Part shown: piece after piece, positions 13,199 to 42,720 of the stretch
How the letters are laid out: every line of letters starts with the position of its first letter
Position numbering within the stretch: position 1 is the stretch's first letter
Assembly: GCF_012911005.2 (NCBI RefSeq)
Contig: NZ_WTVS01000036.1
Coordinates: 1-56,397, forward strand
Direction of reading: 5' to 3'
Length of the DNA: 56,397 nt
Source: Aromatoleum toluolicum
Lineage (GTDB): Bacteria; Pseudomonadota; Gammaproteobacteria; Burkholderiales; Rhodocyclaceae
The notes under the pieces: model-generated
The model's input: only the letters and a program-made list of their open reading frames with translations
Told to the model about the DNA's origin: nothing
The model's database searches: none
Made by a program: the position numbers and the translations under genes

Positions 13199-14920
13199 TC
13201 ACACCGGTGTGGTATCCGCGCCCGTCGCTGCGGGCGTGCTCGGCTCGGGAGGAAGCGCGCGCGTGCTGCGGTTGCGTCCGCCCTCCTTCGAGCGGTAGAG
13301 CGCCGCATCGGCGGCCTCGATCAGGCCCTCCGGGGTCGCGACGGAAAGCTCGGGGAAAGCGGCGACGCCGACGCTGATGGTGACCTTGAGGCCGTCGACT
13401 TCCGCGGCTTCGATTTCCACCCGTAGCCGCTCGGCGACGCAGAATGCGCCCTCGAGCGTGGTGTTGGGCAGGATGCCGACGAATTCCTCGCCGCCGTAGC
13501 GGCATGCGAGGTCGTACTTGCGCAGTGCGTCGTGGAAGTTCCGCGCCACCGACTGCAGCACGCGGTCGCCCTGATCGTGGCCGTAGGTGTCGTTGAATTT
13601 CTTGAAATGGTCAATATCGAACATCAGCACCGCGAGCGAGGTGCCGGTGCGCTGTGCGCGGTTGTATTCGGTGTCCAGCGTGGCGTCGAGGTGGCGGCGG
13701 TTGAACAGGCCGGTGAGGCCGTCGGTGGTCGAGAGCCGGCGCAATTCATCCTCGAGGCGCTTTTCCTCGGTGATGTCGCGCAGCAGCGCAGCGGATCCGA
13801 CGACGTTGTGGTCGCTGCCGAAAATCGTCGAGGCGAAGATCTGCAGGACCCGCCCCTTGTAGGCGGTGGTGATCGCGCCGCCCTGTTCGGGATCGGACAG
13901 CCACAGGCGCATCTGCTCCTCGTCGTCGAGGAGTGCGTAGAAGCCTTCCCGGACGAGCTGGCTTGCCGGCTTTTCGAGCAGGCGTTCGGCGGCGGGGTTG
14001 ACCAGCACGATCTCGCCGGTGCTGTCGGTGACGACAATGCCTTCGCCGGCGCCGTGGATGATGGTCGTGAGCTTGTCCTGTTCCCGCCGCAGGCCGTCGT
14101 ACGTCGTTCTCAGCTCCGAGGTCATGCGGTTGAAGCTGTTGGCCATGGTGCCGATTTCGTCGCGGCTGTGGATCGGCACCTGGTGATTGAGGTCGCCGTC
14201 GGAAACACGGGACATCGCGTGCGTGACCCTCTCGAGCGGCTCGACGACGGTGCGTCCGAGCATGTAGCCGGTGAGCAGCATGGTCGCCATCAGCGCCAGG
14301 GCGAGGCCGCCGATCGCGTACTGGCGCACCTCGTAGATGTCTCGTTCGACGGCGGCGAGCGAGGTCGTCAGCTTGATCACGCCGCGCACCTTGTGCGCGG
14401 TGCCGTGACACTTGCTGCAGGCCTCGGTGTACTTGATCGGGGCGAGAAAGGTCAGGTTGCGGTGGCCGTCCGGGCCGGGTTCGTAGATGGCAAGCGTGCG
14501 GCCTTCGCTCACCGCCGCGAGCAGGTTGGCGTCGTCGGCCGGCAGCACGGGGATCTGCTGTTCGTGATCGCGCGGCGTGAAGGTTTCCTCGCCGCGGCGG
14601 CGGTTCACGTCGTGGATGGTCTTGTTGTCGCGGAAGGCTTCGTCGCCGTTGGTGCGCAGGATGCGGAAGTCGAGGATGTCGGTGACCTTCTTCAGACGGT
14701 CCGCATAGGATTCGGCGATGTCCGCGGAACCCGCCAGCATCACCGCCTGCAGGCCCTGGGCCACGCTTTCGGTGAGCTTTTCCATCGTGCGTTCGTTCTG
14801 GCTCAGGACCGATTGCTCCTGGAAGTGCGTGTAGAAGAACGCCATCGCCACGAGCACGACCGTGACTGCAACGCCGACCGCGAGAGTGATTTTGTAGCGA
14901 ATCCGCATGTTCTTGTTCAT
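13199..14920 (-). CDS. membrane diguanylate cyclase with periplasmic CxxCH haem motif, HAMP and PAS
   Basis: 573 residues. In order: transmembrane helix (about 10-30); periplasmic sensor region (31-200) resembling the DUF3365/Tll0287 type, ending with C168-S-K-C171-H172, a c-type haem attachment motif; a second transmembrane helix (201-222); HAMP (about 222-275); PAS (about 282-385); GGDEF (about 395-555). The cyclase active site is GGEEF at 476-480, and an RxxD inhibitory site (R467, D470) lies exactly five residues before it, so it should make c-di-GMP and be product-inhibited. ATG 14920 is used; the open frame further upstream is ubiH antisense. It follows ubiH by 83 bp. Haem binding is inferred from the motif. 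Confidence 0.9.
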   Translation of the reverse strand: MNKNMRIRYKITLAVGVAVTVVLVAMAFFYTHFQEQSVLSQNERTMEKLTESVAQGLQAVMLAGSADIAESYADRLKKVTDILDFRILRTNGDEAFRDNKTIHDVNRRRGEETFTPRDHEQQIPVLPADDANLLAAVSEGRTLAIYEPGPDGHRNLTFLAPIKYTEACSKCHGTAHKVRGVIKLTTSLAAVERDIYEVRQYAIGGLALALMATMLLTGYMLGRTVVEPLERVTHAMSRVSDGDLNHQVPIHSRDEIGTMANSFNRMTSELRTTYDGLRREQDKLTTIIHGAGEGIVVTDSTGEIVLVNPAAERLLEKPASQLVREGFYALLDDEEQMRLWLSDPEQGGAITTAYKGRVLQIFASTIFGSDHNVVGSAALLRDITEEKRLEDELRRLSTTDGLTGLFNRRHLDATLDTEYNRAQRTGTSLAVLMFDIDHFKKFNDTYGHDQGDRVLQSVARNFHDALRKYDLACRYGGEEFVGILPNTTLEGAFCVAERLRVEIEAAEVDGLKVTISVGVAAFPELSVATPEGLIEAADAALYRSKEGGRNRSTRALPPEPSTPAATGADTTPV

Positions 14921-15003
14921 GTGATGGAACGTTGGCGCCAGGATTGTCCGGCCGCAATCATATAACGAACGGCGGGTTGCCGGCGGGGCCGGCGCCGTGC
15001 GTG

Positions 15004-16155
15004 CTACGGCCAGGCGCGGGCGCCGAACATCATGCGGCGGGCGAGGAAGTGGCGTAGCGGCGGCAGCATGTCGAGGGCGAACAGGGCGGCGCCGCGCGCG
15101 TGGTGCAGGGGGGCGAAGTCGTTGCTGAAGATGCGCGCGAGTCCATCGGTGAAGTTGATCGCGCCGAAGCGGTCGAGCCGGCGGGCGTCGCGCCACGCTG
15201 CGAGCGTGCCGGCGAGGCCGGGGTCGCCGCCATGCTCGAGCAGGGTGCGGGCGAGCGCCCACACGTCGCGCAGTGCGAGATTGAAGCCCTGGCCGGCGAC
15301 CGGGTGCAGGGTCTGGGCGGCATTGCCGAGCCACACGGTGCGCTGGCCGACGGGGTCGGTCCGGTAGCGCAGCACCAGCGGGTAGCGCAGTCGCCCGGTG
15401 ACGCGCACGAACTGCACGCGGCTGCCGAAGCGGCGCTGGAGCTGTTCGAGGTAGGCGGCGTCGGGCAGGGCCAGGAGTTCGGTGGCACGCTGGGGTGAGG
15501 CGACATGCACCAGGGCATACTCGTCGCCATGGGGCAGCAATGCGATCGGCCCTTCGCTGGTGAAGCGCTCGAAGGCGGTATTGCGGTGGCTGCCGGCGAT
15601 GCCTACGTTGGCGATGAGTGCGTGCTGGCCGTAGTCGCGCTCGACGATGTCCGGCGTGCCGGCCTGCAGGCCGCCTTCGGCACAGGCGACGAGGCGGGCG
15701 CGAGCGGCGCTGCCATGGATGGCGGTGCCGGCGAGGCTGGCCGTCACCGCGTCGGCGCCCGCGGCCAGGCCGGTCACCTCGGTCTGGTCCATGACCGTGA
15801 TGCCGGCGCGGTCGACGGCGTCGCGCAGGGCCCCGGCCAGGGCGCCTGCCTGGACGACGTAGCCGAGCGCAGGCAGACCGTAGTCGTCGGCCTCGAGCCG
15901 GGTGCGGCCGAAGCCGCCCTGCTGCGACACGTGGATGTGGCGGATCGACGTCGTCGGCAGGTCGCGCCACACGCCCAGGCGTTCGAGCGTGAGGCGCGAG
16001 CCATGGGCCAGCGCGAGCGCGCGCGGGTCGGCGGCGACGGCGTCGCGCGGACGCGTGTCGGCCAGCGCGATCGCGAGGCCGCTGTCCTTGAGGGCGAGGG
16101 CCAGCGACAGGCCGACCGGCCCGGCGCCGACGATCAGCAGGTCATGCTGCCCCAT
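15004..16155 (-). CDS. ubiH: UbiH-family FAD-dependent hydroxylase (ubiquinone synthesis)
   Basis: A 383-residue flavoprotein monooxygenase. The N-terminal Rossmann motif GAGPVG (9-14) binds FAD ADP; the second FAD motif appears as GNAAQTLHPVAGQGFNLALRDVW near residue 285. The sequence belongs to the UbiH/UbiF/VisC group that hydroxylates the aromatic ring of ubiquinone precursors. It overlaps the end of pepP by 14 bp; pepP-ubiH is a conserved pair in E. coli, which supports the UbiH name. Which ring position it hydroxylates cannot be read from sequence. Confidence 0.85.
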   Translation of the reverse strand: MGQHDLLIVGAGPVGLSLALALKDSGLAIALADTRPRDAVAADPRALALAHGSRLTLERLGVWRDLPTTSIRHIHVSQQGGFGRTRLEADDYGLPALGYVVQAGALAGALRDAVDRAGITVMDQTEVTGLAAGADAVTASLAGTAIHGSAARARLVACAEGGLQAGTPDIVERDYGQHALIANVGIAGSHRNTAFERFTSEGPIALLPHGDEYALVHVASPQRATELLALPDAAYLEQLQRRFGSRVQFVRVTGRLRYPLVLRYRTDPVGQRTVWLGNAAQTLHPVAGQGFNLALRDVWALARTLLEHGGDPGLAGTLAAWRDARRLDRFGAINFTDGLARIFSNDFAPLHHARGAALFALDMLPPLRHFLARRMMFGARAWP

Positions 16156-17506
16156 CGGCGGCCTCGCGCATGACGTCCTCGATGTCGGCGACCGAGCGCG
16201 GTGCCGCTTCGGTGATGTATTCGCAGCCGTCCTCGGTGACCAGTGCGTCGTCCTCGATGCGCACGCCGATGTTCCAGAACGCTTCCGGCACGCCTTCGGC
16301 GGGGCGGATGTAGCACCCCGGCTCGACCGTCAGCACCATGCCCGGCGCCAGCGGCCGCCACTCGCCATCGAGCTTGTATTCGCCCGCGTCATGCACGTCG
16401 CGCCCGAGCCAGTGGCCGGTGCGGTGCATGTAGAAGCGGCGGTAGTGGCCCTGTTCGAGCACTTCGGCGAGGCTGCCGGACAGGAGCTTGAGGTCGAGCA
16501 TGCCCTGGGCGAGCACCTCGACGGCGGCGTCGTGCGGCATGTTCCAGTGTGCGCCGGGACGGATCGCGGCCTTCGCGGCCGTCTGGGCGGCGAGCACGAG
16601 TTCGTAGATGTCGCGCTGCGGGCCGCTGAAGCGGCCGTTAACGGGGAATGTGCGGGTGATGTCCGAGGCGTAGCCGTCGAGTTCGCAGCCGGCGTCGATC
16701 AGCAGCAGCTCGCCGTCGCGCATCTGGCGCTCGTTTTCGACGTAGTGCAGCACGCAGGCGTTGGCGCCGCTGGCGACGATGGAGGGGTAGGCGGGAGCCT
16801 GGCTGCCGGCGCGGCGGAAGGCGTGGATCAGCTCGGCCTCGATCTCGTATTCGAAGCGGCCGGGGCGGGTCGCGGCCATCGCGCGGCGGTGGGCTTCGCC
16901 GGAGATGTCGCCGGCCCGGCGCATGATCGCGATCTCGGCGGCGTCCTTGAGGATGCGCATCTCGTCGAGCTCGGCGCGCACGTCGCGGATCGCATGCGGC
17001 GGGATCGCGCCGGCGCGGGCATTCGCGCGCACGGTGTTGAGGGCGCGCATCACGCGTGCGTCCCAGTCGCTGTCGTGGCCGAGGCTGCACCACAGCGCGG
17101 GCTGTCCGGACATCAGGTCGGGCAGGCGCTGGTCGAGCTCGCCGATGGTCCAGGCTTCGTCGAAGCCGAAGCGCTCGCGCGCGGCGTCCGGGCCGTAGCG
17201 GTAGCCGTCCCAGATCTCGCGCTCCTCGTTCTTCTCGCGGCAGAACAGGATCGATTTCGGCGTGTCGCCGGCGATCAGCACGACCACCGCCTCGGGTTCG
17301 CCGAAGCCGGTGAGGTAGTGGAAATAGCTGTCGTAGCGGAAGGGGTAGTGCGTGTCGCGGTTGCGTGCGTATTCGGGCGCGGTCGGTACGACGGCGACGC
17401 CCCCGCCGAGTGCGTTCATGCGCGCGAGCAGGCGCTCGCGGCGGGCGCGGAAGGGAGCGATATCGAGCGTGAGGGGGGCGAACTGCGGGTCGAGGTGCGT
17501 GTTCAT
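16142..17506 (-). CDS. pepP: Xaa-Pro aminopeptidase P
   Basis: Releases N-terminal residues that precede proline. The 454 residues (E. coli PepP 441) have an N-terminal AMP_N domain (about 15-150) and a C-terminal pita-bread metallopeptidase domain. Metal-binding motifs are visible: DAGCELDGYASDITRTF, HRTGHWLGRDVHDAG, LTVEPGCY and GVRIEDDALVTEDG. It starts 57 bp after murU and its tail overlaps ubiH. Confidence 0.95.
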   Translation of the reverse strand: MNTHLDPQFAPLTLDIAPFRARRERLLARMNALGGGVAVVPTAPEYARNRDTHYPFRYDSYFHYLTGFGEPEAVVVLIAGDTPKSILFCREKNEEREIWDGYRYGPDAARERFGFDEAWTIGELDQRLPDLMSGQPALWCSLGHDSDWDARVMRALNTVRANARAGAIPPHAIRDVRAELDEMRILKDAAEIAIMRRAGDISGEAHRRAMAATRPGRFEYEIEAELIHAFRRAGSQAPAYPSIVASGANACVLHYVENERQMRDGELLLIDAGCELDGYASDITRTFPVNGRFSGPQRDIYELVLAAQTAAKAAIRPGAHWNMPHDAAVEVLAQGMLDLKLLSGSLAEVLEQGHYRRFYMHRTGHWLGRDVHDAGEYKLDGEWRPLAPGMVLTVEPGCYIRPAEGVPEAFWNIGVRIEDDALVTEDGCEYITEAAPRSVADIEDVMREAADGAA

Positions 17507-17563
17507 CGGCTGATTATGGCATGTGCGCGGGTGTCGGATTCGACCGGACCGGCTGCTGCGCGT

Positions 17564-18253
17564 TCAGGTGCCGGTCCGTCGCAGTCGTGTGTCGAGTTCG
17601 GCGAGCCGCGCCGGGGTGCCGACGTCGAGCCAGTAGCCGTCATGCGTCGTGCCGCCGACGCGCCCTGCGTCCATCGCGTCGCGCAGCAGCGGCCCGAGGG
17701 CGGCGCGCGCGCCCGCCGCGATTCCGGCGAAGAGTGCGGGGTGGTACACGCCGATGCCGGAAAAGGTCAGGCGCGGCTCGCCGTCGCGGTGCAGGCGCCC
17801 GCCGGCGAGATGGAAGTCGCCGCCGGGATGGTGTTCGGGATTGGGCACCAGCAGCAGGTGGGCGAGGTCGCCGTTGGCCGCGAGCGCGGCGCCGCGGGTG
17901 CGCAGGGCCGCGAGGTCGGCGTCGCAGAACACGTCGCCATTCACCACCACGAAGGGCGCGTCGCCCAGCAGCGGCAGCGCCTGGCGGATGCCGCCGGCGG
18001 TCTCCAGCGCCTCGGCCTCGGGCGAGTAGCGGATGCGCACGCCGAAGGCGCTGCCGTCACCGAGGGCGGCCTCGATCATCGCGCCGAGATGGGCGTGGTT
18101 GATCGCGATGTCGCTGAAGCCGGCGTCGCGCAGGCGCTCGATGTGCCACACGATCAGCGCCTTGCCGCCTGCCTGCAGCAGCGGCTTGGGGCAGGCGTCC
18201 GTCAGCGGGCGCATGCGTTCGCCGCGTCCGGCGGCGAGGATCATCGCGCGCAT
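17564..18253 (-). CDS. murU: N-acetylmuramate 1-phosphate uridylyltransferase
   Basis: A 229-residue sugar nucleotidyltransferase with the GT-A pyrophosphorylase motif [15 protein letters not shown] at the N-terminus, [11 protein letters not shown], and [10 protein letters not shown] as the metal-binding Asp site. The start codon overlaps the amgK stop (TGATG). The amgK-murU pair in Pseudomonas salvages MurNAc directly to UDP-MurNAc, bypassing de novo synthesis and contributing to intrinsic fosfomycin tolerance. The name depends on this pairing; generic nucleotidyltransferases look similar. Confidence 0.87.
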
Positions 18254-19257
18254 CAGAAGGTGTAGCCGACTTCGACCGGCTCGGGGTCGAGACGGTCGAG
18301 CAGCTTCAGCAGCGGGCCGAGGTCGCGGTAGCGCTTGCACGCGCGGCGCAGGTAGTCCATCACCAGCGGCATGTCGGCGAGGTAGCCGTCCTTGCCGTCG
18401 CGGTGATACAGGCGTGCAAAGATGCCCAGCACCTTGATGTGGCGCTGCACGCCCATCCATTCGTAGTCGCGGTGGAAGTCCGAGAAGTCGTCCCGCACCG
18501 GCAGGCCCAGCTTGCGCGCCGCTTCCCAGTAGCGCGCGAGCATGTCGAGGGTGAAGTCCTCTTCCCAGTGGACATAGGCGTCCTTGAACAGCGAGGCGAG
18601 GTCGTAGGTGAGCGGGCCGTACACCGCGTCCTGGAAGTCGATGATGCCGGGGTTGGCCTGGCCCGGGAGGTACATCAGGTTGCGCGAGTGGTAGTCGCGG
18701 TGCACGAAGACCTGCGGTTCGGCGAGGTTTACCGCGAGGATGCGGTCGAAGGTGTCCATCAGCGTGACGCGCTGGCGGTCGTCGAGGGTGACGCCCTTGT
18801 GGCGCTCGATGTACCAATCGGGGAACAGCATCAGCTCGCGCAGCAGCAGTTCGCGCGAGTATTCGGGCAGGACGTCGGGGCGGCTCGCGCGCTGGATCGC
18901 GATCAGCGAGCCGAGGGCGTCGGCGTAGAGGTGGGCGGCGTTGTCCTTGTTCAGCGCGGCGAGGTAGGTCGTGCTGCCGAGGTCGGAAAGCAGCAGGAAG
19001 CCCTGGTCGAGGTCCTGCGCGAGCACTTCCGGGACGTGTGCGCCGGCGGCGCGGAACAGTTCCTCCACCTTGAGCCAGGGGCGGCAGTCCTCGCGCTCGG
19101 GCGGGGCGTCCATGACGACCAGGCTGGGGCTGCCGTCGGCGAAGTTCACGCGGAAATAGCGACGGAAACTGGCGTCGGCCGATGCGGGCGTCAGCTCGAA
19201 GGTCTTTCCGGACATTCGGGTGGTCAGCCAGTCGTTCAGTTGGGCAAGTCTGTGCAC
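18253..19257 (-). CDS. amgK: anomeric MurNAc/GlcNAc kinase
   Basis: A 334-residue APH-type kinase-like fold. Kinase signs are the [14 protein letters not shown]-lobe start, the catalytic-loop [12 protein letters not shown], and the metal-binding [18 protein letters not shown]. Known family role: phosphorylates the anomeric carbon of MurNAc and GlcNAc for peptidoglycan recycling. A GTG start at 19257 is chosen because GGAG lies six bases before it and the protein then begins with the typical [11 protein letters not shown]; an ATG 24 codons later would lose that helix. It overlaps murU by one base and diverges from lptD. Confidence 0.88.
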
Positions 19258-19362
19258 CGGGTTCTCCGCAACGCTTCGTGTAAAATCCGCGAGTTTATCA
19301 AAAGGCCGGGACCGTGCCGGGCACGGGCCGCCGGCGATGAAACCAGGATTGGGGAAAGCGCT

Positions 19363-21804
19363 TTGCGCGATATGCGATTGAGAACGCAGCTGCGGGCGAT
19401 CCCGCTGCTGCTGCTTTGCTGTTTCTCGGGCTCGGCCCTGGCGGCCGGACTGCCGCCGCTGGTCGTGTCGCCGGACCTGCTCGGTGGCGGTAGCCCCCGC
19501 GCGCCAGCCAAGCCTGCGCCCGCTGCGGCTCCGGCGGAGGCCGCACAGCCTGCGGCCGATGGCCGCCCTGCAGCGAAGGCGCCTGCTCCGGCGCCCGCCG
19601 CCGCGACACCGACGCCGGCTGCGAAGCTGCCCGCGCAGGCGACTGCCGCATTGCCGCCGGGTGCGACCGAGGTGCGTGCCCAGCGCATTCGCGGCACGCG
19701 CTCGGTCGAGCTCGTGGCGGAAGGCGATGCCGAGCTGCAGCGCGACGATCTGCTGCTTTCCGCGGACAAGCTGAGCTACCGCGAGCTCGACGACGAGGCC
19801 CATGCCGAGGGCAATGTGCGGCTCAAGCGCGGCGAGGACAGCATGAGCGGACCGGAGGCGCGGCTCAAGCTCGAGGAGCGGCTGGGCTCGTTCGAGTCGC
19901 CGACCTACCGCATCAAGCGCCAGTCGACCGCGCCGGTGCAGCCGGGCGAGACGCCGCGCGAGGTCGCCGGGGGCGGTTCGGCCGATGTGCTGTATTTCGA
20001 GGGCGAGAACCAGTACCGCCTGAAGAACGCGACCTGGTCGACCTGCGAGGCGAGCGACCCCGACTGGTACCTGAAGGCGAGCGACCTGCACCTCGACTAC
20101 GACCGCGAACTCGGCACCGCGCAGGGCGCGAGCCTGGTGTTCCAGGACGTGCCGATGCTGTGGTGGCCGTGGGCGGAGTTTCCGCTCGTCGGCCAGCGCC
20201 AGTCGGGCTTCCTCGCGCCGACCTTCGGCATGTCGAACAAGGTCGGTCTCGACATCTCGGTGCCGTACTACTGGAACATCGCGCCGAACTACGACGCGAC
20301 GATTGCCCCGCGCGTCATGGGCCGCCGCGGCGTGCAGCTGGCGACCGAGTTCCGTTACCTGACACCGACGCAGGCCGGTGAGGCGCGTGTCGAATACCTG
20401 CCGCGCGACAACGTCACCGGCGAGGAGCGTGCGCTGGGCTCCTTCCAGCATACGCAGGTCATCACGCCCAGCCTGTTCGCGGCAATCGACTGGAACGGCG
20501 TCACCGACAAGGAGTATTTCGAGGACCTCAGTTCGCGCGTGTCGGTCGCCTCGCGTGCGAACCTCGTGCGCAAGGGCACGCTGAACTATGCCGGCGGCGA
20601 GTGGTGGAACGCCTCCGCGCTGGTGCAGAGCTACCAGACCCTGTCGGGCAGCGAGCCGTATCGCATGCTGCCGCAGCTGCTGCTGAACGCCAACCGCGGC
20701 GAGCTGATCGGCGGCTCGGCCTTTGCGTTCCGCGGCGAATACGTGCAGTTCGACCATCCGGACTCGAATCTTGCGGAGGGCAGCCGCTTCACCCTCCATC
20801 CGCAGGTGTCGCTGCCCTTCGAGCGCGCCGGCTATTACGTCACGCCCAAGGTCGGCCTGCATTACACGCAGTACGACCTCGACCGCGACCTGAGCGGCAA
20901 CAGCCGCTCGATCACGCGCTCGGTGCCGATCTTCTCCGTCGACAGCGGCCTGTTCTTCGAGCGCGACACCAGCCTGTTCGGCCGCGATTTCCTGCAGACG
21001 CTGGAGCCGCGCGTGTTCTACGTCAAGACGCCGTTCCGCGACCAGTCCGACATTCCGGTGTTCGATTCGTCGCGCTACGACTTCGGCCTCGCGCAGATCT
21101 TTTCCGAGAACCAGTACTCGGGCGGCGACCGCATCGCCGATGCGAACCAGGTGACCGCGGCGGTGACCTCGCGCCTGATCGACCCCGAATCCGGCGGCGA
21201 GCGCCTGCGCGCGACCGTCGGCCAGCGCTTCTACTTCGACGACCAGCGCGTGACGCTGCCCGGCGAGGAGCCGCGCACCGGCCGCCGTGCCGACGTCCTC
21301 GGCCTCTTCAGCGGCTACGTGATGCAGAAGACCTGGCTCGACTCGACCCTGCAGTACAACCCGCGCGACATGTGGACCGAACGCTTCAACGTCGGCGTGC
21401 GCTACCAGCCGGATTTCGCCAAGGCGCTGAACCTGTCCTACCGCTATTCGCGCGGCCGGCTCGCCGATGAGAGCGACAAGGTCCAGGATCTCGCGCTGTC
21501 CGGCCAGTGGCCGCTGGGCGGCGGATGGTACGGCGTCGGGCGCGTGACGCGCTCGCTGAAGGAAGACCGCATCACCGAGGCGATCGCGGGCATCGAGTAC
21601 GATGGCGGCTGCTGGGTCGTGCGTACCGCGGTGCACCGCTTCGCGACCGACCCCAATGACGTCACCCAGGCGGTGTTCGTGCAGCTCGAGCTCAACGACC
21701 TCGCGAGCGTAGGCACCAGCCCGGTCAATCTGCTCAAACGCAGCGTCGCCGGTTATGGGAAGATCAACGATCCCGTTTCCGATCGCGTTTTCGGCGCCGA
21801 ATGA
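19363..21804 (+). CDS. lptD: LPS-assembly protein LptD
   Basis: Outer-membrane beta-barrel that inserts lipopolysaccharide into the outer leaflet together with LptE. A signal peptide ends at about SGSALA; then comes a Pro/Ala-rich linker (about 45-95), the periplasmic OstA/LptA-like domain (VELVAEGDAELQRDD, AHAEGNVRLKRGED) and the barrel (LSYRYSRGR, final LELNDLASVG). The TTG at 19363 is favoured because GGGGA lies seven bases upstream; ATG 19372 is the alternative. The mature protein has only two cysteines (STCEAS and GGCW), while E. coli LptD uses four. First gene of lptD-surA-pdxA-rsmA. Confidence 0.94.
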   Translation: MRDMRLRTQLRAIPLLLLCCFSGSALAAGLPPLVVSPDLLGGGSPRAPAKPAPAAAPAEAAQPAADGRPAAKAPAPAPAAATPTPAAKLPAQATAALPPGATEVRAQRIRGTRSVELVAEGDAELQRDDLLLSADKLSYRELDDEAHAEGNVRLKRGEDSMSGPEARLKLEERLGSFESPTYRIKRQSTAPVQPGETPREVAGGGSADVLYFEGENQYRLKNATWSTCEASDPDWYLKASDLHLDYDRELGTAQGASLVFQDVPMLWWPWAEFPLVGQRQSGFLAPTFGMSNKVGLDISVPYYWNIAPNYDATIAPRVMGRRGVQLATEFRYLTPTQAGEARVEYLPRDNVTGEERALGSFQHTQVITPSLFAAIDWNGVTDKEYFEDLSSRVSVASRANLVRKGTLNYAGGEWWNASALVQSYQTLSGSEPYRMLPQLLLNANRGELIGGSAFAFRGEYVQFDHPDSNLAEGSRFTLHPQVSLPFERAGYYVTPKVGLHYTQYDLDRDLSGNSRSITRSVPIFSVDSGLFFERDTSLFGRDFLQTLEPRVFYVKTPFRDQSDIPVFDSSRYDFGLAQIFSENQYSGGDRIADANQVTAAVTSRLIDPESGGERLRATVGQRFYFDDQRVTLPGEEPRTGRRADVLGLFSGYVMQKTWLDSTLQYNPRDMWTERFNVGVRYQPDFAKALNLSYRYSRGRLADESDKVQDLALSGQWPLGGGWYGVGRVTRSLKEDRITEAIAGIEYDGGCWVVRTAVHRFATDPNDVTQAVFVQLELNDLASVGTSPVNLLKRSVAGYGKINDPVSDRVFGAE

Positions 21805-23153: not shown

Positions 23154-23159
23154 GCCGGC

Positions 23160-24146: not shown

Positions 24147-24183
24147 CAGCCGAATTCTTTCAACCTGAGTGCCGGTCGACCCG

Positions 24184-25446: not shown

Positions 25447-25459
25447 CAGCAATGATCGT

Positions 25460-26137
25460 TCAGGTTTGCCGGCCGTCGCTCGCGATGCGGCGCAGGCCTG
25501 CGGGGTCGAGGATCTCGATCTGTTCGCGCGACAGCTTCACCAGGCCCTGCGCGGCGAAGCCCTTGAGCAGGCGGCTGACGAACTCGCGCACGCTGCCGAG
25601 CTCGTCGGCGAGCTGCTGGTGCGTGACGTGCAGCAGGCGCCCCTTGCCGAGGAGCTGGGCGGCGAGGCGCTGGTCGAGGCGGTGGAAGGCGACTTCCTCG
25701 ATGAGCTGCATCAGGTCGGCGATGCGCTCGGCGAAGAGGTGGAACACGAAGCTGCGGAAGGCCGGTTCGGCGAGCAGCGCGTCGAACTCGGGCTTGGGCA
25801 GCATCAGCAGCACGGTGTCGGTCTCGGCGATGCCGCGCGCGTTGTAGTCGTCGTGCCCGAGCAGGCAGGACGAGGAGATGATGCAGGTCTCGCCCGGCGT
25901 GACGCGGTACAGCGGCAGCTCGCGGCCGTTCGGCGCGCATTTGACGACGCGCACCGAGCCTTCGACGACGAAGGGAAATCCTTCGCAGGCTTGATGGTCG
26001 TCGAACAGCAGGGTGCCGGCCGGCACGCGCGCCCAGCGGCCTGCCGCGAGCAGGCGCAGGCGCGCGGCTTCGGGCAGCGCCTCGATTATCGGGTAGCGTG
26101 CGGCGGCGAGGGCGGTATCGTGAGTCGGCGTGCTCAT
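25460..26137 (-). CDS. Crp/Fnr-family transcription regulator
   Basis: 225 residues: cyclic-nucleotide-binding-like beta-roll (about 20-125), dimer helix (about 125-150) and a C-terminal winged helix (about 155-215) with recognition helix VREFVSRLLK, matching both the RExxxR and ExxSR patterns of the family. No N-terminal Fnr iron-sulfur cysteine cluster is present, so it is not a classical oxygen Fnr. Cys51, Cys67, Cys85 and Cys91 sit in the sensor domain; GETCIISSSCLLG could be a thiol-based sensor. It follows xth by 12 bp and precedes DUF2892, its likely target. Ligand unknown. Confidence 0.88.
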   Translation of the reverse strand: MSTPTHDTALAAARYPIIEALPEAARLRLLAAGRWARVPAGTLLFDDHQACEGFPFVVEGSVRVVKCAPNGRELPLYRVTPGETCIISSSCLLGHDDYNARGIAETDTVLLMLPKPEFDALLAEPAFRSFVFHLFAERIADLMQLIEEVAFHRLDQRLAAQLLGKGRLLHVTHQQLADELGSVREFVSRLLKGFAAQGLVKLSREQIEILDPAGLRRIASDGRQT

Positions 26138-32399: not shown

Positions 32400-32428
32400 A
32401 CGCGGCGTTCGGGCGGCATCCTGCCCGC

Positions 32429-33202: not shown

Positions 33203-33370
33203 GGCAGCCTCCGTGGAGTTGGAAGTACCAGAGGGCGGCTCCGCGCAGCGTGGTCGCGATGGGGATAGCCCCCGGGTGGAGTATTAGAGCGGCCGGGTTC
33301 GGGCAAGTTCACCCACTTCGCAGCAGGCCTGCGATTTCGTCTCCGTGGTCGGCGGGCGGCGGGCACGGAA

Positions 33371-33411
33371 AGGCCCGCCGTCCCCGGCAGGGAGCCGGGA
33401 AGGGCGGGCCT
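33371..33411 (-). terminator. nested hairpin terminator after purC
   Basis: Outer arms AGGCCCGCC (33371-33379) and GGCGGGCCT (33403-33411) enclose an inner stem CCCGGC/GCCGGG (33383-33388, 33394-33399). On the minus strand the outer stem is followed by a short T run (TTTCC). It lies 20 bp past the purC stop. Confidence 0.7.
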
Positions 33412-33430
33412 CGGACGGGACGCTACGAGC

Positions 33431-34366: not shown

Positions 34367-34394
34367 GATGGAAACTCTTTCAGGGCAAAGCGCA

Positions 34395-34400
34395 ATTATA
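34395..34400 (-). promoter_or_regulatory. -10 box of purC promoter
   Basis: A perfect TATAAT on the minus strand about 29 bases before the purC GTG. The -35 region is poor. The predicted leader is very short (about 20 bases). Confidence 0.45.
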
Positions 34401-34425
34401 GGACAGCTTGGGCTCCGGCCACCCC

Positions 34426-35715
34426 TCAATGGCCACCTTCCTCGGCGGTGAGCTGGCGGCGCATGCGGCGCAGTCCCAGGGCGACCAGGCCGGCGATGAC
34501 CGGGATCGACACCGCCGTGACGACCTCGGGTGTGGCCGGATGGATATAGTCCTTCATGCCCTTCGAGAGGTACTGCACGAGCTGCGAGCCGTAATACGTG
34601 ATCGCGACGACCGACAGGCCTTCCACGGTCTCCTGCAGGCGCAGTTGCAGCTTCGCGCGTTGGTTCATCTGGCCGAGCAGCTCCTGGTTCTGGCGCTCGA
34701 GCTCGATCTCCACGCGCGTGCGCAGCAGCTGCGAATTGCGCACGATGCGGCTCGACAGGTCATCCTGCCGCCGCGCGACCGTCGCACAGGTGTCGATCGC
34801 CGGCGTCAGGCGCCGCTCCATGAATTCGCGCACCGGCGGGTAGCCCTTGACGCGGACCTCGCGCAAGTCGTCGATGCGCTGGCGCACCAGCCGGTAATAG
34901 GCGGCCGCTGCGCCGAAGCGGTAGGTCGTGCGCGCGACCGAACGTTCGACGTGCGCGGCCAGTCGCGTCAGTCGGCCCAGTACGTGGCGCTCGTCCTCGG
35001 GGGTGGCCGCCGCCCCCATCGCGTCCATCAGGTCGGCCAGCTCGTCCTCGGCGAGCGCCAGCAAGCGGCCGACCTCCTTCGCGACCGGGAAGGCGAGCAG
35101 CGCCATCACGCGGTAGGTCTCGATCTCGAGCAGGCGCTGCACCGTGCGCCCCGCCTGGCGCGGGGTCAGCGAGGCGTCGAGGACGAGGAAGCGCGAGAAG
35201 CCGTCCGCGATCTGGAAGTCCGTGAAGACCCAGCCCGCACCGTCGGCGATCTGCGATGCGACCGAGGTCGTGCCGGTCGGCGAGAGCTGCGCGAGCACCG
35301 TCTCGGGGGCGACCTCATCGACGCCGCGCAACTCGATGTGCGTGGCGACCAGCAGCTGGCCGGGGATCTCGCGCCGCCACGCGGCCGGCACGTCGAGCAG
35401 CGGGTTGTCGTCGCTCGTGCCGCTGAAGTCGATGCGGCGCACGAAAGTGTAGCTGGTAAATTCGTTGTGGCGTTCCCACTTCAGGCGGAATCCGCCGGCA
35501 TCGAGGAAGACATGCCCGGACGAGGTGTCCGGCGGCGCCAGTTCGAACTGTTCGGCGAGCAGGCGCAGGTGGTCCGCCTCGCGTTCGGCGCTGCCGTCGA
35601 CGTGAAGGAAGGCGAGGTAGGTGACGAATTCCGGCGTGTCCAGCGTGACCGGGGGGCGTGCGTGGACTTCGTCGTTCAGTTTGTGGCGGAGTGGATATTC
35701 GTCGAACAGGGGCAT
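34426..35715 (-). CDS. DUF3422 membrane-anchored protein
   Basis: 429 residues. The N-terminus [14 protein letters not shown] is the DUF3422 signature. A long soluble part is followed by a helical coiled-coil-like region (about 310-375) and two C-terminal transmembrane helices (about 380-398 and 405-422). Function unknown. Some members of the family are described as predicted membrane-anchored proteins with a CorA-like end; that likeness is only topological here. No clear partner gene. Confidence 0.88.
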
Positions 35716-35769
35716 GGCGCGGCAATCGGGTTGGACGCGCTAGGGTAGCGACCGCGGGGCGATAACGAA

Positions 35770-35814
35770 AGCCCCGCCGTGCCCGGGCATGGCTGCCGCG
35801 GGCAGGGCGGGGCT
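35770..35814 (-). terminator. hairpin terminator after OmpA-type lipoprotein gene
   Basis: Arms AGCCCCGCC (35770-35778) and GGCGGGGCT (35806-35814), 9 bp perfect, 17 bp after the stop of the minus-strand gene; TTTCG follows on that strand. Confidence 0.7.
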
Positions 35815-35831
35815 GCAGGAGGCCGGTGCGA

Positions 35832-36524
35832 TCAGTAGCGCGGGCCGGGCGCGGGCTGCATACCGGGCTGCTGGGCCTGTGTGGGCACGATCAGCACTTC
35901 GACGCGGCGGTTCTGCGCGCGTCCCTGCGGCGAGCCGTTGTCGGCGACCGGTCGCGACGCGCCGTAGCCGACGGCGATCAGCCGGTTCGATTCCACGCCG
36001 CGCTGGGTCATGTAGCTGCGCACGGCCTCGGCGCGGTTCTCGGACAGCGTCTGGTTGAAGCTCGCCGCGCCCGTCGAGTCGGTGTGGCCCTCGACCTGCA
36101 CGATGGTGTCGGGGTACTGCTGGATGCTCTGCGACAGGCGCGTCAACACCGGCTGGAACTGCGGCTTCACGTCGGCACGGCCGGTGTCGAAGGTGATGTT
36201 CTCGGGCGCCTGCAGGCGGATCGTGTCGCCCTGGCGCTGTACCTGAACGCCGGTGCCGGCCATCTGCTGGCGCAGCTCGGCTTCCTGCTTGTCCATCTGG
36301 CGGCCGACCAGGCCGCCGACGGTCGCGCCGATCGCAGCGCCCACCAGGCCACCCGTCGTGCGGTTGCCCGAACCGGCGACGACGTTACCGAGGATCGCGC
36401 CGGCGCCGGCGCCGATGGCCGCTCCGCGGGTGGTCTGAGCGTGTTCGCCGTAGAACGGATTCTGCGCACAGCCTGCGACCGTCAGGATCGACAGGGTCGT
36501 GACGATCAATGCAACTTTCATCAT
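35832..36524 (-). CDS. OmpA-family lipoprotein with glycine-zipper (YiaD-like)
   Basis: 230 residues. Signal peptide with lipobox VAGC, so Cys19 should be lipidated. A glycine-zipper segment (about 33-75, GAAIGAGAGAILGN and GGLVGAAIGATVGGLVG) precedes an OmpA C-terminal peptidoglycan-binding domain (about 105-215; QVEGHTDSTGAASFNQTLSENRAEAVRSYM, with the Asp and Arg that bind diaminopimelate). AGGAG lies three bases before the first ATG and six before the second, so 36521 may be the true start. Expected to tether the outer membrane to peptidoglycan. Confidence 0.92.
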   Translation of the reverse strand: MMKVALIVTTLSILTVAGCAQNPFYGEHAQTTRGAAIGAGAGAILGNVVAGSGNRTTGGLVGAAIGATVGGLVGRQMDKQEAELRQQMAGTGVQVQRQGDTIRLQAPENITFDTGRADVKPQFQPVLTRLSQSIQQYPDTIVQVEGHTDSTGAASFNQTLSENRAEAVRSYMTQRGVESNRLIAVGYGASRPVADNGSPQGRAQNRRVEVLIVPTQAQQPGMQPAPGPRY

Positions 36525-36619
36525 GGTCTCCTGGGTTGAAAAGAGCGAACTGCCCTATTTTGAGCGCGTCCGCCCGCCCGGGGTTCCGGGAAGCATAACG
36601 AATTGTAAATGCGCGGGGT

Positions 36620-39190
36620 TCAGGTGCCGATGCCGATGGCCTGCTCGATGGATGGCGTCGGGCGCTGGATGTGATAGCCCTGGGCGAGATCGATCGACTG
36701 GGCGACGACCTTGTCGAGCACCTCCGCATCCTCGACATACTCGGCCACGGTGCGGATGCCCAGCTCGCGCGCGAGCGCGACGATGCTGCGCACGAGCGCC
36801 CGATCCTTGTCGTTGTGCTTCATGCCGAGGATGAAGTCGCCCTCGATCTTCAGGAAATCGATCGGGAAGCGCTTCACGTAGTGGAAGGAGGAGAAGCCCG
36901 AGCCGAAGTCGTCGATCGCGAGACGGAAGCCTTCGCTCCGCAAGGTGTTGATGAAGCGTTCCAGCAGGGCCATGTTCTTGATCGTCTCGCGCTCGGTGAT
37001 CTCGAACACGATGCGCGACGGGTCGAAGCCCGACGCGCTGGCGATGCGCCGCGTCTCCTGCACGAAATCGTTGAGCACCAGCGCGCGCGGCGACATGTTG
37101 AGGAACAGCAGGCCCTGGTAATTGGCTGCGGTAGCGGCCTCGAGCGCGCGCTCCATCAGGATGTAATCGAGCTTGTGCATCAGGCCCATCTTCTCGGCGA
37201 TCGCGACAAAGGCGTCGGCGACCAGGATGGAGCCGTCGTCGAGACGGATGCGCGCGAGCACTTCGAGCGCCTCGACCTTGCCCGTCTTCGGGTCGATGAT
37301 GGGCTGGTAGTAGGGGATCACCCCGCGCGCCTCGACCGCCGCGAGGATCAGCATGCTCTTCTCGGACAGCGAGCGGAACACCTCGACGACGTCCTGTTCG
37401 GTGGGGATCGCCACCCGGCCTTTGCCATCGGCCTTGGCGCGATACATCATGCTGTCGGCGAACAGGAACAGGTCCTTGGTCTCGATGGCGTGGTCCGGAT
37501 AGACTGCCATGCCGACCGACAGCGAGCCGTTCACGCGCGTATTGTCCGGGGTCTCGATCGCCAGCGCGGTCACGGCTTCGATGATGCGCTGGGCGACCTC
37601 GATGGTGCCGGCGAGGTCGGTCTCGGGCAGGATCGCGACGAACTCGTCGCCGCCGTAGCGCGCGAGCAGGTCATCTTCGCGGATCGCACGACGGATCGTC
37701 GTCGCGACCTCCTGCAGGAACACGTCGCCGAAGCCGTGGCCGTACGTGTCATTCACCGACTTGAAGTTGTCGGCGTCGATCATCAGCAGCCCGAACTTGT
37801 AGCCGTGACGGCCCGAGCGCGTCGCCTCGCTGTCGAGCAGTTCCCAGAACACGCGCTGGTTGTAGAGGTTGGTCAGCGGGTCGCGCGTCGCGTAGTACTC
37901 GAGGTCTTTGGTGTACTTGTCGATCGCCTTCACCGAGCCGACCACGTTCAGCAGCGTCGACAGGATGCTCTCGACCACCAGCCAGCGTGTAGGGTCGGTG
38001 CCGGCCTGGGCCTGCATGCCGATGCCGACGATGCCGCCGATCTTGGGCGCCTCGACCAGCAGGGACTTCGTCTGCACCTCGATGTCGCAGCGCACCAGCT
38101 CCGGCGCGTTGCGCGAGCTGTCGGCGATGTTGTGCTCGATGCTCACGGCGTAGCCGTCGGCGAAGTACGGGTTGCGGCGCAGCGATTCGCGCACGGTCTC
38201 CTCGAACAGCTGCCGGCTCTCCGTCGACGGCGCGTAGCGCCAGAACACCTCGAGGTCGAAGACGTCCTCGCCGGTCTTGAAGATCGAGAACAGCGCGTAG
38301 GCCGGCATCACGCCATCGATGTCGATGAGCAGGCGATTCACATACTCGCGCCAGTCCTTGACGACATCGGAGGTGAGGATGAATTTCTCCAGCAGGCGGA
38401 TCTCGAACTCGAGCATGTCCTTGTCGACGGCCACGCTGCGCACGCGCTCGGTGAGCTGCCTGACCTCGCTCACGACCGGGCTGAATTCGCTGAAGCCGAA
38501 GTCGAGCGAAGCGTTTTCGAGTTGCTTCAGGTCGGACAGCCGGCTGATCGAGCGTATGTTCGTCGCAAAGCCCGCGATCGCCTTGTTCAGCCGGCGGCGG
38601 ATATACATCACCATCAGCAGCGTCGCCACGATCGCCACCGGCACCACCGGTGCGAAGGCGAACATGAACTGGCGATTGCCGGCCTCGAGCAGCGGTCGGA
38701 TGTCCTGGCGCACGTCGATGACGCCCAGCACTTCGCCGGGCTTCGCGTTCGTGTGGCATTGCCGGCATTCGGCCTCGGCGCGCAGGGCGTTGATGAAGCG
38801 CACTTCCGGGCCCTGATCGATGCGGCGGCTCTCGCCGCTCGCGATCACCTCGAGGATCGCCGCATCCATCTCGCGCTGCTTGATCTCGCCGAACAGTTCG
38901 GTGACGCGCGGCGCGCGGTAGATCGCGATCTGGTGCTTGGTCTTGTCCACCGAACGCTCGATCGCGCGGATGAACTCCTCGAGCTGCGTGCGGGTCCAGC
39001 CGGTACGCATCAGCTGGAACATCGACTGGAAAGTCATTTCCGCGAAAGTGTTCGCGTCGCGCATCGCCTCTTCGCGGATCGAGCGCTCGTGGAGATTGGA
39101 GACCACGTACTGGGTGGCGACCGCGAGCGCCGTCGAGAAGACGACGGCAGCAGTCAGCAGGAGTCCGCGGATGGTCTTGATCGGAGTCAT
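36620..39190 (-). CDS. membrane GGDEF-EAL protein with periplasmic CxxCH haem motif
   Basis: 856 residues: transmembrane helix (about 8-30); periplasmic region (31-172) ending with C142-R-Q-C145-H146 and GEVLGVIDVRQD; transmembrane helix (about 176-197); a cytosolic GAF-like region (about 260-425); GGDEF domain with intact GGDEF (513-517) and RxxD inhibitory site (R504, D507); EAL domain (about 605-850). EAL residues: E643-V-L, N698, E730, D760-D761, K781. Two changes from consensus are KIE for KID (781-783) and AEYVE for AEGVE (816-820). Could be bifunctional. It lies 113 bp downstream of an NnrU-like gene. ATG 39190 chosen. Confidence 0.9.
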   Translation of the reverse strand: MTPIKTIRGLLLTAAVVFSTALAVATQYVVSNLHERSIREEAMRDANTFAEMTFQSMFQLMRTGWTRTQLEEFIRAIERSVDKTKHQIAIYRAPRVTELFGEIKQREMDAAILEVIASGESRRIDQGPEVRFINALRAEAECRQCHTNAKPGEVLGVIDVRQDIRPLLEAGNRQFMFAFAPVVPVAIVATLLMVMYIRRRLNKAIAGFATNIRSISRLSDLKQLENASLDFGFSEFSPVVSEVRQLTERVRSVAVDKDMLEFEIRLLEKFILTSDVVKDWREYVNRLLIDIDGVMPAYALFSIFKTGEDVFDLEVFWRYAPSTESRQLFEETVRESLRRNPYFADGYAVSIEHNIADSSRNAPELVRCDIEVQTKSLLVEAPKIGGIVGIGMQAQAGTDPTRWLVVESILSTLLNVVGSVKAIDKYTKDLEYYATRDPLTNLYNQRVFWELLDSEATRSGRHGYKFGLLMIDADNFKSVNDTYGHGFGDVFLQEVATTIRRAIREDDLLARYGGDEFVAILPETDLAGTIEVAQRIIEAVTALAIETPDNTRVNGSLSVGMAVYPDHAIETKDLFLFADSMMYRAKADGKGRVAIPTEQDVVEVFRSLSEKSMLILAAVEARGVIPYYQPIIDPKTGKVEALEVLARIRLDDGSILVADAFVAIAEKMGLMHKLDYILMERALEAATAANYQGLLFLNMSPRALVLNDFVQETRRIASASGFDPSRIVFEITERETIKNMALLERFINTLRSEGFRLAIDDFGSGFSSFHYVKRFPIDFLKIEGDFILGMKHNDKDRALVRSIVALARELGIRTVAEYVEDAEVLDKVVAQSIDLAQGYHIQRPTPSIEQAIGIGT

Positions 39191-39303
39191 TGCGTGGGGC
39201 GATCCCGGTCCCGCGCAGGCGCCGCACGCGGTCACCGCCGGGGACCGGTCTGACGCCCGAGTCGAAGTGTAAGAACGCGTAACAAAAAGGAAATTTCCGC
39301 GGA

Positions 39304-40002
39304 CTATACTCCCACGTCCCCATTACGGAAAGCCTTGTCCCGGGCGGGGGAATCGCCTTCCGCGAGGAGCGCTTCGGCCTGCGCGCGCGTGAGGAACCGG
39401 CCCGGCAGGGGGATCAGCCCGGCGACGGCTGTCCGGTAGCGGGCGTAGCGGGCGCCGTGCAGCGCGAGGAGCTTGCGCTCCTCGAGCAGGGATCCGATCC
39501 AGAGGTAGGCGGTGATGCTCAGTGACGACGCGAGGCGCGCCGCATCCATGTCGCGCGTCCACAGGATCAGCAGGCCCAGGAAGTACCACGGGTGGCGCAC
39601 GATGCGGTGCAGCGGCGACAGTTGCAGGCGTCCTTCGTCGTGCCGCGGCGGATGGGTTCCCGCGCGCCACTGCGCGAGCCCCGAAAAGCCTCCCATGTCG
39701 TAATGGCGCGTCGTCCACGCGAAACCGGCCACGGCCGCGAGCGCCACGGCGTTGGCGATCCAGGCGCCGACGCCGGACCATTCCCACAGCAGCGGGCCGC
39801 GCAGCGCGAAGGTGAGCCACGCGGGCGGCACAAGCAGCAGCACCGCGAGGGCGTTGAAGGCCAGCCGGTAGCCGCGCGTCGCCGCGGGCCAGTGGCGTGC
39901 GACGAAGCCTTGCACCGCGAACGAGGCCAGCAGGGAATGGATCAGCCCGTACAGCGCCCACGCGGCGACGAGGGTGGCGAGCTGTGCGGCGGAAGGGTGC
40001 AT
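39304..40002 (-). CDS. NnrU/ICMT-like membrane methyltransferase family protein
   Basis: 232 residues with about six hydrophobic helices. The C-terminal half holds the isoprenylcysteine/phospholipid methyltransferase-like signature HRIVRHPWYFLGLL and the later EERKLLALHGARYARYR, where family members bind SAM. Related proteins are annotated NnrU, MddA or plain methyltransferase family protein. Substrate unknown. Upstream of the GGDEF-EAL gene on the same strand. Confidence 0.78.
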   Translation of the reverse strand: MHPSAAQLATLVAAWALYGLIHSLLASFAVQGFVARHWPAATRGYRLAFNALAVLLLVPPAWLTFALRGPLLWEWSGVGAWIANAVALAAVAGFAWTTRHYDMGGFSGLAQWRAGTHPPRHDEGRLQLSPLHRIVRHPWYFLGLLILWTRDMDAARLASSLSITAYLWIGSLLEERKLLALHGARYARYRTAVAGLIPLPGRFLTRAQAEALLAEGDSPARDKAFRNGDVGV

Positions 40003-40112
40003 GGGCGGCCTCGGCGCTATCGCATGCGGGCGGATCCCGCGGCGAGCGGGATGATGTCACGATTGTCCGCCCCGGTCATCGACGCGGGGCAGGGCGCCGC
40101 GGCGCTGCCTTC

Positions 40113-40661
40113 CTACAGCGCGCGTTCGATCGCCTCGCGAACTTCGCGGGAATCCGGCTCGACCCGGCTCGGGAACGACGCCACCACCTTGCCGTTGCGA
40201 TCCACCACGTACTTGTGGAAGTTCCAGCGCGGCGCGCCCGACTGCCGCGCGAGCTCGCGGAACACCGGGTGGGCGCCGTCCCCGCTGACGCCGATCGGCG
40301 AGAACATGTCGAAGCTCACCCCGTAATTTACGAAGCACACCTTTGCGGCCTCCGCCTCGTTCGCGGCTTCCTGGCGAAAGTCGTTCGACGCGAAGCCGAC
40401 GACCATCAGGCCGCGGTCCTTGTACTGCCGGTGCAGCGCTTCGAGCGCCTTGAACTGTCCCGTGTAGCCGCAGTGGCTGGCGGTGTTCACGATCAGCAGC
40501 GGCTTGCCGCCGTAACGCTGGCGAAGATTGACGACCTCTTCGGAATGCAGCCGGCGCAGGGAGTGATCCAGGTAGGTGAGACCGTCGGCAGGGCCGGCCG
40601 CGGACGCGCCTACGGGGAGCAGCAGGGCGGCACACGCCGCCGCGAGGAGTGCGCGGATCAT
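40113..40661 (-). CDS. periplasmic glutathione peroxidase-family protein
   Basis: 182 residues with a signal peptide ([18 protein letters not shown]) and a thioredoxin-fold peroxidase domain. The peroxidatic Cys64 sits in [13 protein letters not shown]; Trp146-Asn147 are in [12 protein letters not shown]. The usual catalytic Gln motif (FPCNQF) reads FASNDF here, so the tetrad Gln is replaced by Asp94. Likely reduces hydroperoxides with a thioredoxin-like donor. The ATG at 40661 begins the signal peptide; the frame is open upstream. Divergent from the cyclase gene at 40855. Confidence 0.87.
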
Positions 40662-40854
40662 TGGTTTTCTCGCTGTTGGGGGCTGGGGTGTCGCTGAGAC
40701 CCGGAAGTCCGGTTCGAGTTCGTCGCGGGCGCGCAGCGGTGATGCCAAGAGCAACGCGAATGCGCCCCATTGTGGGGTGTTACAAAGCTTTTCAGGGCAT
40801 AATTGCACCCCGGCGAAACAATCATGCGGGGAGGCGCGCACCCCCGGAGTCCGA

Positions 40855-42720
40855 ATGAATCTGAATCGAAAGATGACCCTGCTGTTCGGCGGCATCGCTG
40901 TGGGCACACTGGTGATGCTGATCCTGATCAGCCTTTATGCCTTCCGCAGCTATTCGATCGCCTCATCGACGGCGCACGTGCGAACGGCCGCGGAAATCGT
41001 GCGCGTACATCTGACCGAGTCGATGATTCAGGGGGTCATCGACAAGCGCGAACAATTCCTCAACCGCTTGATCGAGGTCCAGGGGCTGCGCACGGCGCGG
41101 GTCGTGCGCTCCACGCACGTGAACGAACAGTTCGGTGCCGGCATGAACCGCGAGATGAACGCGGACGAGATCGAGAAGCTCGTGCTCGCCGACGGCCAGC
41201 CCCGCTACGAGATCCGCGACGAAGCCGGCGATTCGGTGTTCCGCGGCACCATTCCGTTCGCCGCCTCGTCGCGCGGCACCCCGAACTGCCTGCAGTGCCA
41301 CAAGGTCAGCGAGGGTACGGTGCTCGGCGCCGTCACGATGGAGCTGTCACTGACCGAGCTCAAGGAGAAGGCGCTCACGACCGTGACCTGGATCAGCGTC
41401 ACGATGGCGATGTTTGCGGCGCTCTCGATCGTTCTCGCCCGGCGTCTGATCCTGCCGGTCGGCTCGACCGCGCAGGCGGTGGAGCGCGCGGTGCAGCGCG
41501 CGCTGAAAGGCGACTTCAAGGGGCGCGTGGAAAAGCGCACCGACGACGAGATCGGCCAGATCGCCAGCGAGACCAACAACCTGCTTACCTTCCTCGACGA
41601 CGGCCTCGCGCGCATCAGTCAGCGTGTCGTGCAGCTCACCGGCCGCACCCTGCGGCAGGACGACAACCAGCTCGAGGTCGCGATCGATATGGTCAACGGC
41701 CTGGCCGATGCGTCCAGCTTCAAGCAGGCGATCGAGGAGGACGAGACCAAGGCCGAGATCTTCGACCGCTTCGGCCGCGTGCTGACCGAGCAGTTCGGCG
41801 TGCGCGAATTCTCCATTTACGAGACCTCCGGGCCGAAGCAGCTGGAACCCTTCATGGTGGACGGCGTGCAGGGCAGCCCGTGCCGCTGGTGCGATCCGCA
41901 GATTCTCGTGCGCAGCGACATGTGCCGTGCCAAGCGCTCCGGCCACACCGTCGATGGCCTGACCCAGCCGGGCATCTGCTATGCGTTCAAGCAGCCCGAC
42001 GATACGGGGGAGACGCGGCGCCACTATTGCGTGCCGATCATGCAGTCCGGCGCGGTGGGCAGTATCGTCCAGCTCGTCGTGCGCGAATCGGAGGCGGCGC
42101 GCTTCCATGCCCAGGTGCCGTACGTGAACGTCTATGTGCGCGAGATGGCGCCGGTGCTGGAGGCCAAGCGCCTGACCGAGACGCTGCGCGAGTCCTCGCT
42201 GCGCGATGCGATGACGGGCCTGAACAACCGCCGCTTCCTCGAGGAATACGTCGACACCCTGGTCGCCACGGCGCGCCGGCGCAAGATCGAGCTGGCGATC
42301 ATGGTGCTGGACATCGACTACTTCAAGATGGTGAACGACACCTACGGCCACGATGCCGGCGACGCGGTGCTGAAATCGCTGGCTGCGGTGCTGCGCACCT
42401 CGGTGCGGGCGTCGGACATGGTCATCCGCTTCGGCGGGGAAGAGTTCCTCATCGTCCTGCAGGAAACCGAGGCGGAGAATGCGCTGCGTGTCGCAGAGAA
42501 CATCCGCGCGACCGTCGCGGACCTGAAGATCCAGGTCGGCGGCGCGGTGCTGCAGAAGACGATCTCGATCGGTCTGGCGATGTTCCCCGAGGACAGCGAA
42601 ACCTTCTGGCAGACCGTGAAGTTCGCGGACGTGGCCCTCTATCGCGCGAAGGATGACGGCCGCAATCGCGTCGTTCGCTTCAGGTCCGAGATGTGGGAAG
42701 GGCACGCCGACTCGTACTGA
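40855..42720 (+). CDS. membrane diguanylate cyclase with periplasmic CxxCH motif and cysteine-rich GAF-like domain
   Basis: 621 residues: transmembrane helix (about 8-30); periplasmic region (31-172) with C145-L-Q-C148-H149; transmembrane helix (about 174-196); HAMP (about 197-250); a GAF-like domain (about 280-435) with Cys343, Cys346, Cys357, Cys375 and Cys392; GGDEF domain (about 445-610) with GGEEF at 527-531 and RxxD inhibitory site (R518, D521). Should synthesise c-di-GMP under control of a haem domain and possibly a metal site. ATG 40855 has GGAG six bases upstream. It stands alone between divergent gpx and a convergent unknown gene. Confidence 0.9.

Follow-up and report, generated by a model that had tools for sequence, protein, structure and literature searches.

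Three cyclic di-GMP enzymes with predicted periplasmic c-type haem inputs, one with an additional five-cysteine GAF domain, on a single contig of Aromatoleum toluolicum

The stretch of DNA analysed here, called the window, is one entire contig (NZ_WTVS01000036.1, 56,397 nucleotides) of the 6.16-Mb genome of Aromatoleum toluolicum, and it contains three genes for enzymes of cyclic di-GMP (c-di-GMP) turnover, named A, B and C, whose products each carry a CxxCH motif in a periplasmic domain. Protein A (573 residues; 13199..14920, minus strand) consists of a membrane helix, a periplasmic Cache domain with a predicted haem, a second membrane helix, HAMP, PAS and a GGDEF domain, as in a diguanylate cyclase. 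Protein B (856 residues; 36620..39190, minus strand) begins with the same helix-Cache-helix unit and continues with a GAF-like, a GGDEF and an EAL domain, and in protein C (621 residues; 40855..42720, plus strand) this unit is followed by a HAMP-like part, a five-cysteine GAF domain and a GGDEF domain; the domain search returned no HAMP match in B. An initial annotation made from the sequence alone had the coordinates of the three proteins right and omitted the minus strand of A and B, and its topology of two membrane helices around a periplasmic CxxCH domain agrees with a simple hydropathy scan, which places the helices ~150–170 residues apart in all three. The GGDEF domains of A (13268..13729, minus strand; I-site RKYD), B (37418..37891, minus strand; REDD) and C (42199..42669, plus strand; RASD) score 160, 156 and 164 bits against a cut-off of 23.8, and each holds the diguanylate cyclase signature, an intact GG[DE]EF active site with an RxxD I-site five residues ahead, as had been annotated, suggesting that all three may be active cyclases. 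The EAL domain of B (36659..37342, minus strand; EVL form, 218 bits) is a feature absent from that annotation; all seven loose patterns used for the EAL catalytic motifs occur in it and it may be active. Two B-type alignment rows (L094 and L095) lack two or more of these patterns.

The haem motifs lie at residues 168–172 of A (CSKCH; 14405..14419, minus strand), 142–146 of B (CRQCH; 38753..38767, minus strand) and 145–149 of C (CLQCH; 41287..41301, plus strand), where they had been placed initially. Conservation was calculated from alignment rows that are the best matches among 150 sampled genomes of the bacterial family, not a random draw, with the own protein counted. CxxCH is retained in every row of A (8/8) and of C (30/30) and in 29/30 rows of B, and its expected frequency by composition is ~6e-4 per 160 residues. 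The periplasmic sequences had been described as dissimilar, and their pairwise identity is indeed 26–32%, yet the three domains are mutually homologous (hhalign E 9e-10 to 2e-16), which corrects that description. They also have relatives among solved c-haem sensors, namely GSU0582/GSU0935 and Tll0287, and they show the trait of the sCache_heme domains, a Cache fold with CxxCH inserted ahead of the final strand (PMC12889525). This homology makes a covalent c-type haem on A, B and C very likely, and the haem binding proposed initially is strongly supported by it together with the strict CxxCH, an invariant first-helix methionine and the CcmE gene that the genome carries. It is very probable that the haem inputs are real, and they belong to a kind already described, the sCache_heme domains of the 2026 preprint. 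Against PF21563, the Mcp40H-20 sensor (gathering score 27), A scores 37.8 bits over profile positions 53–111 of 112; B and C were not among the matches listed for this family.

The methionine of the first helix is invariant in the rows of A (Met61; 14738..14740, minus strand; 8/8), B (Met61; 39008..39010, minus strand; 30/30) and C (Met57; 41023..41025, plus strand; 30/30) and in 22/22 related rows, all in one alignment column; Met57 of B is likewise invariant. In the crystal of GSU0935, Met60 is reported as the distal ligand of one haem, bound when the protein is reduced and displaced by oxidation, carbon monoxide (CO) or nitric oxide (NO) (PMC8396549, excerpt). The invariant methionine is the probable distal haem ligand. 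Because it is invariant, and the two Tll0287-like proteins of this genome have at that place a nearby cysteine or neither residue, we assign A, B and C to the Met-type sensors. As to the row sets, A2 was made without L096, A4 holds 17/22 related rows with the kinase row L069 included, and A5 holds 28/30. The same genome (G000) also encodes a stand-alone Tll0287-like protein (L059, near 7414 of contig 112) with a CLNCH motif and a cysteine near the distal-ligand position.

Natural variants without the haem domain were found for two of the proteins. In the B protein of a congener (G137), residues ~62–175 including CxxCH are gone and the first helix joins the second membrane helix directly, with the GAF-like part, GGDEF and EAL staying in one open frame. 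In a genome of a different genus (G023), a second C copy (L151) has lost residues ~51–174 and keeps the HAMP-like part, the five cysteines and GGDEF. Thus, the haem module alone was lost in two different proteins. In a further C homologue (L234) the frame starts at the GAF domain, with all five cysteines kept. In another (L254, genome G183) the frame is interrupted, and the CxxCH and GAF-GGDEF parts lie in different frames.

The cytoplasmic GAF-fold domain of C (41695..42174, plus strand) contains Cys343, Cys346, Cys357, Cys375 and Cys392, all invariant in 30/30 rows, and occurs together with the haem domain in 79/81 loci examined (L151 and 80 loci retained from 244 relatives; the remaining 164 are outside this count). 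By this domain the closest named relatives are Aromatoleum tolulyticum (99%) and Azoarcus sp. Aa7 (98%), and the record titles include Aromatoleum, Azonexus, Dechloromonas, Gallionella, Thiocystis, Magnetospirillum and others. C-bearing lineages include denitrifiers, iron oxidisers, purple sulphur and magnetotactic bacteria. The best sequence match of the domain in the PDB is a designed helical protein (E 0.04), no GAF family appeared among the Pfam matches listed for the 30 C rows (25 of 48 families), and a literature search on cysteine and iron-sulphur GAF domains in cyclases gave nothing concerning this domain among the titles listed. An origin from free methionine-R-sulfoxide reductase is suggested by the fold rank and a loosely similar cysteine spacing, but the profile comparison did not support it. 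The five-cysteine GAF domain looks new, and the haem part is of a known kind. The cysteines probably form a metal, iron-sulphur or thiol site, and C may be a sensor with two inputs, haem outside and cysteines inside. We propose, tentatively and as something short of even odds, that C represents a widespread kind of redox sensor spanning two compartments, in which the c-haem in the periplasm and a cofactor held by cysteines in the cytoplasm, either an Fe-S cluster or redox thiols, jointly gate one cyclase, and of which L151, having lost the haem domain, would be a cytoplasm-only reader. With such joint gating, C would compare conditions across the inner membrane. Alternatively, the five cysteines could be a structural zinc site or part of a buried core, with the haem as sole input, a possibility that we take seriously without thinking it probable. 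Zinc needs only four thiols, C-x2-C pairs are frequent in zinc sites, and the fold matches of the GAF domain display no cofactor, all of which would fit; however, the number of invariant cysteines is five, not four. The retention of all five in the haem-less L151 and in L234 is as expected of an independent input, but is not decisive because a structural site would be kept too.

A phylogenetic tree, built without L096, L114 and five related rows, places A, B and C in three separate clades, consistent with the initial view that they need not be recent copies; a recent local duplication was rejected on this ground. C adjoins chemoreceptor sensors (support 91/81), and A, whose own clade has support 91/66, adjoins L069 and L070 (94/83); long-branch joins were flagged as possibly false. 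L069, grouped with A, is a histidine kinase with a related sensor. The genome has 54 GGDEF matches, for each of which the reading frame was picked by script, and 53 of these frames are complete at the N side. CxxCH is found in the same open frame in four of them, three on this contig. The fourth is a 702-residue open frame on contig 274 (L058, from 5852) with a Tll0287-like match above the cut-off; its distal column holds no Met and no Cys. The survey figure of 4/369, own genome included, is a lower bound because at most ten candidates per genome were scored.

We give a probability of roughly 0.7 to the reading that A, B and C are separately evolved c-di-GMP enzymes sharing a c-type haem Cache input with a methionine ligand, C having two inputs. 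The architecture, homology and conservation of the proteins and the predicted folds of B and C are what the analysis shows, and to these we add, as what we infer, the haem attachment, the methionine ligation, the identity of the signal, the GAF cofactor and the direction of control. The shared input module would be a periplasmic single-Cache domain with a covalent c-type haem of the GSU0582/GSU0935 type, in which the CxxCH histidine would serve as proximal ligand and the first-helix methionine probably as distal ligand. If the iron were oxidised, or bound NO or CO, the methionine would be displaced and the first helix shifted, and this shift would pass through the membrane helices to HAMP (A and C) or a helix (B), then to PAS (A) or GAF (B and C), and finally alter how the GGDEF domains pair. 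A and C would produce c-di-GMP, and B could make or break it. The second input of C would be the cytoplasmic GAF domain with its five invariant cysteines, so that the output of C would follow the redox or nitrosative state of periplasm and cytoplasm alike. That A, B and C respond to redox state or gases, as the initial annotation supposed, is suggested by what is known of their relatives.

Several observations weigh against this reading. In the proposed profile search against PF11845 (DUF3365/Tll0287), the three proteins stay below the gathering cut-off of 24.1 (14.6 for A, 15.7 for B, and C without a match at E 1; among the 30 C rows, seven give weak matches, the best with E 0.004). A search of the PDB by sequence with the C profile found no haem sensor, the B match to 5b82 ties with ordinary Cache domains, the stretch that aligns Met61 of A with the Met pair of GSU0582 (3b47) is weak (6.4 bits), and the fold predictions were made for B and C, not A. 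The distribution of nirS, examined in 149 relatives with p values uncorrected for kinship and after dropping six weak or partial matches (94 to 88), is also less than favourable: there is no association with C (21/36 with C vs 67/113 without), that with A is not significant (6/7, p 0.24), and two congeners (G100 and G137) retain nirS though they have no A, no C and no haem-bearing B.

These distributions bear on another explanation, namely that the domains are selective sensors of the periplasmic NO made by NirS and that the set is a denitrification sensor. A signalling-type sCache_heme domain is reported to have NO-sensor properties (PMC12889525). The genome carries NirS-like frames and the CcmE gene, which makes a supply of periplasmic NO and the assembly of c-haem likely, and nirS is associated with B (34/43 with B vs 54/106 without, p 0.0017). 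However, C lacks such an association, the two congeners keep nirS without the haem inputs, and the invariant methionine fits redox sensing equally well. For denitrification as a common cause the result is mixed, nirS tracking B, not C, and A not significantly. We regard selective NO sensing as conceivable but somewhat doubtful, and favour redox state as the signal and NO as an additional ligand rather than NO by itself.

It is unlikely that A, B and C form one co-selected functional cluster tied to haem supply. That all three GGDEF genes of the contig are of the haem type has p 1.6e-4, a value calculated after the fact; A, B and C lie within 50 kb in the congener G044, and B stands beside C in 6/6 Aromatoleum/Azoarcus loci (L161–L166). 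In the 149 relatives, A is always accompanied by B (7/7, p 1e-4) and B and C occur together in 18 genomes (p 0.0017; Fisher tests, again uncorrected for kinship), the presence sets being 7 genomes for A, 43 for B (including G137 with its domain excised and the partial G149) and 36 for C. On the other hand, A and C do not co-occur above chance (2/7, p 0.54), and the surroundings of A are an inherited housekeeping block: G044 shares the order hemX-hemY-hemF-purD-purH-dusB-A-ubiH-pepP-lptD-surA-pdxA, and G009 has it in reverse, with C on a separate contig. In G053 and G129 (L155 and L156), A sits elsewhere, the hem genes of the window having no match near it; there A is one of a tandem pair, as in 5/7 A-bearing relatives. 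The conserved order and the other location of A imply that the cluster is a lineage-level arrangement inside housekeeping genes, and we therefore rejected haem-gene proximity as a functional link, giving no weight to the clue that the initial annotation had seen in it. Of the five haem-synthesis genes counted there, hemC, hemD and hemF hold; the other two encode HemX and HemY_N proteins, which are not known as established enzymes of the haem pathway. The idea of a shared signalling set is weakly supported, by the co-occurrence of A with B and of B with C and against the separate clades, the A and C result and the two of three sampled congeners (G100 and G137; G044 has all three) that are without any haem form; a group role of A, B and C is unproven. 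Finally, that CxxCH is a disulphide or vestige binding no haem is very improbable, given that the motif histidine is invariant wherever the domain is present, the methionine is invariant and the domains are homologous to solved haem proteins.

As to other neighbours, B adjoins ompA, DUF3422 and purC genes: the gene for a YiaD-family OmpA lipoprotein (35832–36524, minus strand) follows B immediately downstream in the same orientation, and a DUF3422 protein (34426–35715, minus strand) adjoins purC. In G044, G137 and G009, too, the lipoprotein is found near B and the DUF3422 protein beside purC. C lies near fba-pyk, with 16 fba matches across 80 loci. A Crp/Fnr-family regulator (25460–26137, minus strand) adjoins ksgA, and a protein at 48142–49185 (plus strand) matches the Cache domains dCache_2 and sCache_2.

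Signalling by c-di-GMP is of consequence in a relative, Azoarcus sp. CIB, in which a foreign cyclase or phosphodiesterase is reported to have lowered rice colonisation (PMC7998248, excerpt). If our reading is true, C would be a cyclase that reads redox conditions in the periplasm and the cytoplasm alike. C occurs in lineages that need to match attachment with electron acceptors. With the natural haem-less variants, the division of labour can be tested directly, and the five-cysteine GAF domain is the part of C worth testing.

Among known systems, DgcO/PdeO (DosC/DosP) and the globin-coupled cyclases hold their haem in cytoplasmic globin or PAS domains, unlike A, B and C, whose haem is predicted to be c-type and periplasmic. 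They share the haem input and the c-di-GMP output (PMC8846402, excerpt), and in that 2022 census the terms 'c-type' and 'CXXCH' have 0 occurrences. No characterised c-di-GMP enzyme with a periplasmic c-type haem appeared among the papers listed by the literature searches; such enzymes are predicted in the sCache_heme preprint, which lists fusions to GGDEF and EAL and in which the term 'GAF domain' has 0 occurrences (PMC12889525). The diguanylate cyclase PA14_53310 is likewise a c-di-GMP enzyme with a haem-binding periplasmic domain, but its CHASE4 domain takes haem as a ligand, excess haem being inhibitory, and covalent haem is unmentioned in the excerpt (PMC13277305). The chloroplast sensor kinase, with a [3Fe-4S] cluster in its GAF domain, also uses cysteine for redox sensing, but with other cysteines and a kinase output, and it resembles C in idea only (PMC6949291, excerpt). 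The Tll0287 type has an axial cysteine, where A, B and C have the invariant methionine. The periplasmic c-haem sensor domains of the Geobacter chemoreceptors GSU0935 and GSU0582 (PDB 3b42 and 3b47) are related to A and B by sequence and to C by fold, with the same CxxCH, first-helix methionine and two flanking membrane helices, and within its own bacterial family C has chemoreceptor sensors as close relatives. The output of GSU0935/GSU0582 is chemotaxis, whereas that of A, B and C is c-di-GMP turnover, and compared with them B has an extra GAF-like and EAL domain and C an extra five-cysteine GAF domain.
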